A DNA stretch of 39,252 bases from Gemmatimonadota bacterium (lineage in GTDB: Bacteria > Gemmatimonadota > Gemmatimonadetes > Gemmatimonadales > GWC2-71-9): NCBI GenBank assembly GCA_016794825.1, contig JAEUJH010000433.1, positions 1-39,252 of the forward strand. Direction: 5' to 3'. The notes beneath the pieces were generated by a model. That model ran no database searches. It saw only the letters and a list, made by a program, of their open reading frames with translations, and was not told where the DNA came from. The stretch's first letter is position 1; the number at the start of each line of letters is the position of its first letter. A program made the position numbers and the translations under genes. Positions 31,648 to 34,355 of the stretch are shown one piece after another.

Positions 31648-31707
31648 GGATGATCGATCCTTCAGCGGCGGTTCATACGTGGTTCAGTCGATGAAGAAAA
31701 TCTTTCG

Positions 31708-32058
31708 TTGGTGCGTAATGGCCTCCTGAAGTTTCGGCGAACCCTGTCGGCGATCGGCGTCCTCGTCGTCGCCGCCTTGCCGCTCGACCGGATTCCGGTG
31801 GCCGTCCACGCCCCGTCGTGCCACCAGGAACCTGGCGGACCGCAGGATCACGACGGCTCGCAGAAGGCGCACGCCGACTGTGGCGCGGCGTGTTGCCTCG
31901 CCCTCGGGCACAACCAGCCGCTCGTCCCCCCGACAATCCTCGTTCCAGGGTACGGTGTTACCGGCCACCAGCCGCCAGCGTTCCCCACCGCCGACCCGGT
32001 TCGCCTTCCCCCTTCCTACCGGCTCCCCTTCGCCAACGCACCGCCCGCGCGTCGCTGA
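31708..32058 (+). CDS. small exported Cys/His-rich protein, possible metal binder
   Basis: A 116-residue protein (TTG 31708 or GTG 31711 as start; neither is certain). An N-terminal signal-like segment (KFRR, then TLSAIGVLVVAALPLDRIPVAV) is followed by a compact Cys/His cluster at residues 38-68: Cys38, His39, His48, His55, Cys58, Cys62, Cys63 and His68. The remainder is Pro-rich and probably unstructured. It resembles small exported metal-site proteins of the DUF2946 kind in layout, but I cannot confirm membership. It lies 80 nt upstream of, and in line with, a TonB receptor that carries a copper-type site, so a copper-related role is inferred. Codon use seems somewhat less GC-biased at the 5' end. 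Confidence 0.6.
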   Translation: MVRNGLLKFRRTLSAIGVLVVAALPLDRIPVAVHAPSCHQEPGGPQDHDGSQKAHADCGAACCLALGHNQPLVPPTILVPGYGVTGHQPPAFPTADPVRLPPSYRLPFANAPPARR

Positions 32059-32138
32059 ACAACCGCCGTTCGCTTCGGGCCGTCGCCCCCCGCTTGGGTG
32101 GGCGGCGTTGAGCGCAGTTCCGTGAAAGGGGATCCGTC

Positions 32139-34355
32139 ATGATGAGGCTACGTCCGGCGAGCCTGCTCGCCCTTGTTCTTCTCCTGTTTCTGCCCGCGGT
32201 CGCCGCGGGGCAGTTGACCATCTCCGGGCGGGTTCGTGACTCGCTCAGCGGCACCGGTCTGCCTGGCGTCCGCCTGACGACCGGAAGGCGCCTGGCCACG
32301 ACCGACGCGACCGGCCAGTTTACCCTGACGGTCGCGACGTCCGCCGACACGGTCGAGTTCCACCGGGCAGGGTACGCCACCCGCCGCCTCCCGGCCGGCG
32401 ACGTCGGCGTCGAGGTCTGGCTTTCCCGGGCCCCGGAACTGATGACCGAGCTCACCGTCTCCGCCGCCCCACCTCCGGTCCACGTCGGCGGGGAAACTGC
32501 GTTAGGCCTCGGCACGGCCGATCGGATCATCCTGGGCGGCCGTGGCGATCGGTCCCTGGCCGACGCGCTGGCCACTGTCGAGGGCGTCTCGGCACAACAT
32601 CCCGGTGCCTGGGGCGCCAAGGCGTTCGTTCGAGGGTTGGGCGGGGAACGGGTTACCGTGCTCATTGACGGCGATCGGGTCAATCGTGCCTGCAACAACG
32701 GAATGGATGCCGGCCTCGCCACGATCGACGCCGCCATGGTCGAACGGGTCGAGGTCATTGCCGGGCCCGGATCGGTCCTCTACGGCTCCGGCAACATTGG
32801 CGGGGTCATCAACGTCGTGACCCGCCGCCCCTCCAGCCGACCCTATTCCGGTGAAGTGCGGCTGGGGGCCTCCTCCGCGGTACCGGGAGCGACCCTCGGC
32901 GGGACCTTCGGCGTGGTCCGGCCCCGTTTCGACCTGACCGTCGCCGCCGACTGGTCGGCGTACGACGACTACCGGACGCCGACGGGCACGCTGACCGGGT
33001 CTTCGTATCGCCACGGGACTGGGTCGCTCCGCCTCGGCCTCAAGCCGGCACAAGGACACCGGGTCGACCTGAAAGTCGAGCGGTACCTCGGCCGTGACAT
33101 TGGCTATCCCGCGATGGCCGGCGCCCAGATTCCCCAAGAGGATCGTCTGCTCACGGCGGTCGACTACGGATGGCAGATCAGCCACGGTGTGCTCGATGGC
33201 TTGTCGGCCAAGGTCTACCGGCAGGCACTCGATCACGACATGGAAGTCGCGATGTCGATGACCATGCCCAACGGCATGAAGATGACCTCGGTGACCGAGG
33301 CGATCACCACGTCCGCCACCTACGGCGGCCGAGTCCAAACCCGCCTCCGACCGGCCCCCGGCGCGCGACTCGACGCCGGCGTCGAGCTCAGTGAGTGGCG
33401 GGCGGACGGGACCCGCTGGGTGACGAGTGGCGCCGGATCGCCGATGGCTTCGACCCTGACCCTGCGTTCGTGGCCTGACGTCGTCATTCGCGACGTCGGG
33501 GCCTTCAGCCAGGGCGAGTGGCTCCTCGGAACGGTCATCGCGGTGAGCGCCGGGGGGCGGGTAGACCAGGTGCGGAATCAGGCCGATGGACAACCCGCCG
33601 AGGGGCAGTGGGTCGCCAGCGGCAACGTCGGCCTCAAGATCTATCCCGCCCCCGGTTGGGTCGCCCGAGCCACGGTCGGCCGCGGATACCGGATCGCCGA
33701 CCCCACCGAATTGCACGGCCTCCTGGTGCGACCCGACGGTTTCATCTACGAAGGCAATCCCGAACTTGCCACAGAAACGGGACGCAACCTCGAAGCGGCG
33801 GTCTCCTATGCCGGGGCCACCGCCGACGTCGGCGTCACCGTGTTCCGGAATGACCTCCACAATCTCATCTCGTCGGTTCTTCTGCCGGACTCCACCATCT
33901 CCGGCTATCGGGTTCGCCAGTTCGCCAATCTGGCCAAAGCCAGGGTTCAGGGCATCACCGCCCGGACTTCGATCCGGTTCCACCGGTCGGCCACGCTTCG
34001 CGGCACGGCCAGCTACACTCACGGCGAAAACCTGGATACCCGGACCGCGCTGCCCCTGATTCCTCCTCTCGAAGGCCAGCTTGCCCTGCGAGTCACTCCC
34101 GGCGCCCGGTTGCGCTGGCTCGAACTGGAAACCCGGTGGGCAGGCCGTCAGGATCGTGCGGCAACCGCTCAGGGCGAAGCCGTGACGAACGGCTTCGCGG
34201 TCGCCAACCTCCGCGCCGGGTTCTCGGCGTTGGGAGCCGAGTTCGTTCCAGGAATCGACAACATCTTCGACAAGGCGTATCGAAATCACCTCGACCCCGC
34301 CCGGATCATCCTCCCGGGACGCAACTTCTTCCTGCGAGTCACCCGGGCGTTCTGA
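32139..34355 (+). CDS. TonB-dependent receptor with OprC-type copper site
   Basis: Outer-membrane TonB-dependent receptor, 738 residues. The layout is a signal peptide (1-24), a carboxypeptidase-regulatory-like domain (26-95: LTISGRVRDSLSGTGLPGVR), a plug (about 120-235, with LIDGDR and ERVEVIAGPGSVLYGSGNIGG), and a barrel ending in RNFFLRVTRAF with a terminal Phe. The plug has Cys185-x3-Met189 (ACNNGMD) and the barrel has His366-x-Met368 (DHDME), the CxxxM-HxM set known for the copper receptor OprC, with almost the same spacing (181 versus about 180 residues). A Met-rich run (Met368, 372, 374, 376, 380, 382) follows. It may import copper. A B12 or siderophore role cannot be fully excluded. 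One CGTTAGGC octamer is at 32500. Confidence 0.87.
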   Translation: MMRLRPASLLALVLLLFLPAVAAGQLTISGRVRDSLSGTGLPGVRLTTGRRLATTDATGQFTLTVATSADTVEFHRAGYATRRLPAGDVGVEVWLSRAPELMTELTVSAAPPPVHVGGETALGLGTADRIILGGRGDRSLADALATVEGVSAQHPGAWGAKAFVRGLGGERVTVLIDGDRVNRACNNGMDAGLATIDAAMVERVEVIAGPGSVLYGSGNIGGVINVVTRRPSSRPYSGEVRLGASSAVPGATLGGTFGVVRPRFDLTVAADWSAYDDYRTPTGTLTGSSYRHGTGSLRLGLKPAQGHRVDLKVERYLGRDIGYPAMAGAQIPQEDRLLTAVDYGWQISHGVLDGLSAKVYRQALDHDMEVAMSMTMPNGMKMTSVTEAITTSATYGGRVQTRLRPAPGARLDAGVELSEWRADGTRWVTSGAGSPMASTLTLRSWPDVVIRDVGAFSQGEWLLGTVIAVSAGGRVDQVRNQADGQPAEGQWVASGNVGLKIYPAPGWVARATVGRGYRIADPTELHGLLVRPDGFIYEGNPELATETGRNLEAAVSYAGATADVGVTVFRNDLHNLISSVLLPDSTISGYRVRQFANLAKARVQGITARTSIRFHRSATLRGTASYTHGENLDTRTALPLIPPLEGQLALRVTPGARLRWLELETRWAGRQDRAATAQGEAVTNGFAVANLRAGFSALGAEFVPGIDNIFDKAYRNHLDPARIILPGRNFFLRVTRAF

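Follow-up and report, generated by a model that had tools for sequence, protein, structure and literature searches.

A TonB-dependent receptor with OprC-like copper ligands and a candidate copper-responsive leader in Gemmatimonadota

OprC of Pseudomonas aeruginosa binds copper through Cys143, Met147, His323, and Met325, and a methionine track has been described in the same protein (PMC8610252). The C143A mutant of OprC loses Cu(II) and still binds Ag(I), which has been interpreted as Cu(I) binding. OprC itself has been reported to carry a cruR homolog upstream (PMC9426467). In Bordetella pertussis, the copper-responsive upstream ORF CruR contains a CXXC motif followed after 45 residues by RAPP, a spacing that tolerates changes of one or two residues. 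The operon stays on as long as ribosomes stall at RAPP; once copper occupies the CXXC, the stall is relieved and Rho-dependent termination can follow. The R139A and A140S substitutions together abolish expression. CruR homologs also head genes for OprC-type receptors, MbnP/MbnH, CopC, and PCu(A)C (PMC9426467).

Two further descriptions bear on such leaders. The CutF-like proteins, together with CopL, also have an export signal, a Cys motif, and a C-terminal proline motif and lie upstream of copper genes, but in CutF copper enhances stalling, the opposite sense to CruR; the published CutF-like set is 55% Pseudomonadota and 40% Bacteroidota after normalization by proteome (PMC9973294). Arrest peptides with a C-terminal core ending in PP are likewise encoded by small exported ORFs, often before TonB- or copper-related genes. 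The survey that described them counted RAPP and RGPP and took AAPP and AGPP as background, and replacement of RAPP by AAPP in CruR abolishes arrest in vitro (PMC12992588). Here, we describe a locus from Gemmatimonadota, a poorly studied phylum, that appears to meld the OprC ligand set with a leader of this general kind.

Receptor gene and predicted copper ligands

The window, by which we mean the whole stretch of DNA analyzed here, comprises 39,252 nt of contig JAEUJH010000433.1 from Gemmatimonadota bacterium GCA_016794825.1, and all coordinates given for this locus are window positions on the forward strand. An ORF at 32139–34355 encodes a TonB-dependent receptor of 738 residues that we assign as OprC-like on the basis of Pfam, phmmer, Foldseek, and VIA-align. 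Pfam identifies a CarboxypepD_reg domain (residues 27–85, 32217–32393), a plug domain (residues 134–223, 32538–32807), and a β-barrel domain (residues 276–695, 32964–34223). The alignment with OprC begins only at residue 141, and the CarboxypepD_reg domain, N-terminal to the plug, is an addition relative to OprC.

An earlier note on this DNA had proposed that the receptor reproduces the copper ligands of OprC, and the translated ORF bears this out. A CxxxM motif (32691–32705) in the plug provides Cys185 (codon 32691–32693) and Met189 (32703–32705), and an HxM motif (33234–33242) in the barrel wall provides His366 (33234–33236) and Met368 (33240–33242). The intervals are 4, 181, and 183 residues, those given in the note for OprC (4, 180, and 182) agree with the published ligands (PMC8610252), and the difference between 181 and 180 carries no weight because the alignment crosses short gaps in the barrel. 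Cys185 is the sole cysteine of the protein. In the phmmer alignment with OprC (6fok), which is gap-free from residue 141 up to the CxxxM motif, C185 pairs with C143, M189 with M147, H366 with H323, and M368 with M325. Homology, beyond agreement in spacing, therefore underlies the match. The note had also judged such agreement unlikely to arise by chance; a CxxxM motif with an HxM 179–181 residues after its cysteine appeared in 2 of 200,000 residue shuffles of the receptor, a chance of ≈1e-5. Directly after the HxM motif, residues 372–382 (33252–33284) form a Met-rich stretch, and because OprC is Met-rich at the same place, we regard it as a candidate counterpart of the OprC methionine track.

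According to the note, homologs that had lost the four residues would refute the proposal, and no such loss was seen. Close relatives of the receptor (E ≤1e-60) occur in 5 of 395 Gemmatimonadota genomes, with the window's genome among them; a search of five relatives from the same genus gave none. A scan of 84,980 species genomes contributed two further MAGs, one from Gemmatimonadetes and one from Candidatus Eisenbacteria; the remaining close matches sit on contigs equal in length to those of three known loci and were counted once. The Cys, Met, His, and Met residues (CMHM) are retained in all seven distinct loci, the window's included, six of them from Gemmatimonadota and one from Candidatus Eisenbacteria. 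More distant loci (L014–L071) encode other TonB receptors that lack the ligands, and these were used as controls. The known range of the rare OprC copper site thereby reaches past Pseudomonadota, and the ligand set is open to direct testing.

Leader ORF upstream of the receptor

The earlier note, although correct about the receptor residues, missed an ORF upstream of the gene (31708–32058) that begins at TTG31708 or GTG31711 and encodes 115–116 residues. This candidate copper-responsive leader lies outside the span on which the note had relied (32691–33285), and it is stronger evidence than that span itself. Its protein has a hydrophobic, export-signal-like N terminus, a cluster of cysteines, CGAACC (residues 57–62, 31879–31896), that we predict to be the copper sensor, and the C-terminal sequence LPFANAPPARR. 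The NAPP codons (32035–32046), followed by ARR and the stop codon, would form the ribosome-arrest core and lie 46 residues beyond the last cysteine. The GC content at the three codon positions (0.77/0.55/0.81) is near that of the receptor gene. A C-rich, G-poor stretch (C 0.47–0.50, G 0.20–0.23) spans 31891–32058 and is a possible Rho loading region. In the 80-nt gap between leader and receptor (32059–32138), the RNA is less stable than the average shuffle (z = 1.18), and a strong hairpin that sequesters the start site is thus unsupported. A 12-codon ATG ORF (MKKIFRWCVMAS, 31691–31729) overlaps the leader start in another frame; it may be a chance occurrence or may influence the choice of leader start.

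The leader shares with CruR its status as a small exported ORF, its position at the head of the operon, a Cys motif, a distance of ≈45 residues, and a C-terminal xAPP, as well as a C-rich transcript. It differs in that CxxxCC replaces CXXC, NAPP replaces RAPP, and the gap to the downstream gene is 80 nt rather than 162. Formal membership in DUF2946 (Pfam PF11162) is ruled out by the curated score, as the window leader reaches 12.7 bits against a gathering score of 23.7, and no DUF2946 match was found across the window's whole genome.

The same layout recurs wherever the receptor does. At every one of the seven receptor loci, a same-strand leader ORF encodes a Cys cluster and, toward its C terminus, xAPP or xGPP. 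In plasmid-borne proteobacterial relatives, a leader with RAPP or RGPP at its end also accompanies the CMHM receptors of Raoultella, Burkholderia, and Thioclava, and that of Raoultella is annotated as DUF2946. For the receptors of Methylocystis, Methylosinus, and Cereibacter, which lack the ligands, no leader passes the same scan, and a leader with both motif and Cys pair was found at none of 55 unrelated TonB receptors used as controls from other phyla.

A leader family across Gemmatimonadota

Compared with the receptor, the leader family is both more widespread and less well known. A profile built from five leaders has matches in 36 of 395 Gemmatimonadota genomes, most of which end in xPP and precede TonB receptors, MbnP with a MauG-type peroxidase, CopC/CopD, or a receptor followed by PepSY_TM. 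A profile built from 30 leaders has matches in 183 of the 395 genomes. Leader relatives in nearly half of the surveyed genomes offer a handle for finding copper-uptake operons in this phylum. We found no published description of the Gemmatimonadota leaders, although supplementary tables may list such leaders. Neither Pfam nor NCBIfam provides a clear family for them: the window leader has no match, and the others give scattered weak matches to DUF2946 and CopL_fam, the latter in 5 of the 30 leaders.

We sampled 70 further profile matches, none of which had been used in building the profile. Each of them ends in x[AGP]PP, and in 69 the last cysteine lies 42–48 residues from the motif (median 45), although motif and spacing in these matches are partly conditioned by a profile built from xPP-ending leaders, whereas the downstream genes are not. 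Those genes, readable in 68 cases, comprise 45 TonB receptors, five PCu(A)C, three CopC, and two MbnP genes; the other 13, assigned by eye, belong to one His/Met-rich outer-membrane family with the signature HAPIGVMGDH. As with CruR, a TonB receptor and other copper genes thus lie downstream. The Cys motif of the family is mostly C-x-C-x3-C, with C-x-C-x(2-5)-C or similar at the position of the window's cluster, and the N-terminal part is His-rich in most members. The last 150 nt of the leaders have a mean C–G skew of 0.18, compared with 0.01 in the downstream genes, and the skew exceeds 0.1 in 56 of the 70 leaders and in one downstream gene, as expected for a Rho loading region.

The position of the RAPP arginine is occupied in the 70 sampled leaders by N, T, Q, H, I, or L, mostly by the first four, and the N, T, Q, and H forms lay outside the RAPP/RGPP survey (PMC12992588). 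If leaders with a non-arginine xAPP do arrest ribosomes, the arginine requirement of RAPP-type arrest will need to be widened. Overall, the leaders look like a phylum-wide variant of the copper-responsive leader peptide. We lean toward the broader view that nascent peptides sensing copper are widespread in Gemmatimonadota, that each carrier genome has one to four of them, and that their arrest core is LPFxN(A/G)PP or T(A/G)PP, which lacks the arginine needed in CruR and lies at an unchanged 45 residues from the metal site. Such peptides would control several kinds of copper uptake receptor, among them OprC-like receptors with the full CMHM set and others in which glycine naturally replaces the cysteine; these match the C143A mutant of OprC and would be expected to favor Cu(I).

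The HAPIGVMGDH proteins merit separate mention. Members at L118, L128, L132, L177, L182, L201, and other loci are outer-membrane-like and rich in Met and His, and their genes often lie directly 3′ of a leader. They have no clear Pfam family and are possibly copper proteins.

For the window itself, the best explanation, and one that we consider probable, is an OprC-type copper importer headed by a CruR-like leader. Copper, as Cu(I) or Cu(II), would be captured by Cys185 and Met189 of the plug together with His366 and Met368 of the barrel, possibly fed to the site by the Met-rich stretch, and TonB energy would move it into the periplasm. When copper is scarce, the ribosome would pause at the NAPP of the leader and transcription would run on into the receptor gene. 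Copper bound to the Cys cluster of the nascent leader, ≈46 residues back, would relieve the pause, and the freed C-rich transcript would be open to Rho, so that the receptor gene is shut down. Given the leader, copper control of the receptor is likely, with arrest and the sign of control as its predicted components. Against this explanation stand the absence of the RAPP arginine, the use of CxxxCC in place of CXXC, the low confidence of the CxxxM loop in the structure model, scores below the curated cut-offs of NCBIfam TonB-copper and Pfam DUF2946, and a TonB-hemin score slightly higher than that for TonB-copper.

The sign of control allows a different reading, in which the leader works in the sense of CutF, with copper prolonging the stall and turning on the downstream gene, or serves as a periplasmic copper chaperone with no regulatory role in cis. 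CutF has the same layout with copper-enhanced stalling (PMC9973294), and the CxxxC of the window leader matches that of CutF. Most genes downstream of the leaders, however, encode uptake receptors or copper chaperones and would be expected to be active at low copper, as with CruR and oprC, whereas the neighbors of CutF-type genes are often efflux or oxidase genes (PMC9973294); furthermore, one would not expect a chaperone to maintain a strict Cys-to-PP spacing. We therefore regard either form of this reading as unlikely and retain control in the CruR sense.

Receptor relatives, substrate, and genomic context

On the receptor tree, the seven loci form one clade (support 100/100) that is separate from the compared proteobacterial OprC-like receptors. 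The adjacent group includes those receptors and two Gemmatimonadota receptors in which the motifs read GxxxM-HxM. The ten CMHM rows require two changes on this tree, and the GxxxM-HxM receptors separate two CMHM clades, an arrangement that would also be produced if CxxxM-HxM had arisen independently in the window clade and in proteobacterial OprC. Yet the GxxxM-HxM receptors retain the Met, His, and Met in place, so a single origin with loss or gain of the cysteine suffices, and the 12 rows cluster together (85/88) with identical aligned positions. With the GxxxM-HxM receptors as a bridge between the two clades, simple convergence on the four residues is the less likely account, and we consider an independent origin improbable relative to common descent of the site.

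Four leader-headed Gemmatimonadota receptors (L120, L131, L206, and L227) carry GxxxM-HxM. By analogy, they resemble a natural C143A form of OprC and are predicted to favor Cu(I). Several other leader-headed receptors lack the OprC ligands altogether. Because CrtA-type receptors under CruR import chelated copper, these raise the prospect that the window receptor, too, takes up copper chelated by a small molecule rather than ionic copper. The orthologs of CrtA lack a conserved Cys or Met, however, and the window clade has the full OprC set, which makes this prospect quite improbable.

Sequence and fold comparisons agree with an OprC-like assignment, in which we have high confidence. OprC is the best sequence match in the PDB (phmmer E 5e-19). 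An AlphaFold2 model from 13 sequences has a pLDDT of 76 and a pTM of 0.71, with the CxxxM loop (residues 184–191) below a pLDDT of 50; a second model, from six close homologs, was worse (pLDDT 61), with an ill-defined plug. With the predicted model, Foldseek ranks OprC first, in 28 of the top 29 rows, at ≈20% identity over the fold, and PhuR second; the receptor and OprC share the TonB fold, with the four ligands at aligned positions and a Met-rich stretch after the HxM. In VIA-align, OprC (Z 32.5) and BtuB-type chains (33.9) lie within about 1.5 Z of each other, so the substrate cannot be read from the fold alone. The receptor scores 155.9 bits against the NCBIfam TonB-copper model (TIGR01778), below its curated cut-off of 472.45, which rules out formal membership in that family, and we accordingly name it OprC-like.

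That the protein is instead a heme, siderophore, or other receptor with four incidental residues is very improbable: TonB-hemin is its top NCBIfam model (169 bits, slightly above TonB-copper), and the PhuR and BtuB-type matches point the same way, but both NCBIfam scores fall under their cut-offs, the OprC ligands are invariant in the relatives and missing from the B12, catecholate, and other receptors used for comparison, and a copper-type leader stands at every locus, so that we reject heme as its identity on the ligands and leader. Copper uptake, which the note had predicted, is the best-supported function that we can assign from sequence, and it is well supported by OprC as best PDB sequence match and top fold match, by the retained ligands, and by the leader at every locus.

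The genome from which the window derives encodes a CuA oxidase and NosZ and therefore needs copper; with NosZ, the organism may reduce nitrous oxide, a copper-requiring step. A TonB receptor match is located no more than about 5 kb from NosZ (G000:C591:13184–17949). This genome has three leader matches, namely the window leader and two others that precede PCu(A)C genes and a different TonB receptor, respectively. The second (L241; G000:C249, 3572–3973, reverse strand) contains GCRCGGECHG and LRPFANGPP and precedes two PCu(A)C genes that flank a cytochrome c-like ORF; a gene for a MauG-type di-heme peroxidase lies on its other side. The third (L242; G000:C865, 1248–1628, forward strand) contains DCHSDCAAGC and LPFPTAPP and precedes a TonB receptor that lacks the OprC ligands, together with a BNR-repeat protein. 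BNR-repeat proteins, some of them lipoprotein-like, are encoded directly after the TonB receptor in the leader-headed operons at L122, L123, L129, L133, and L139 as well as at L242.
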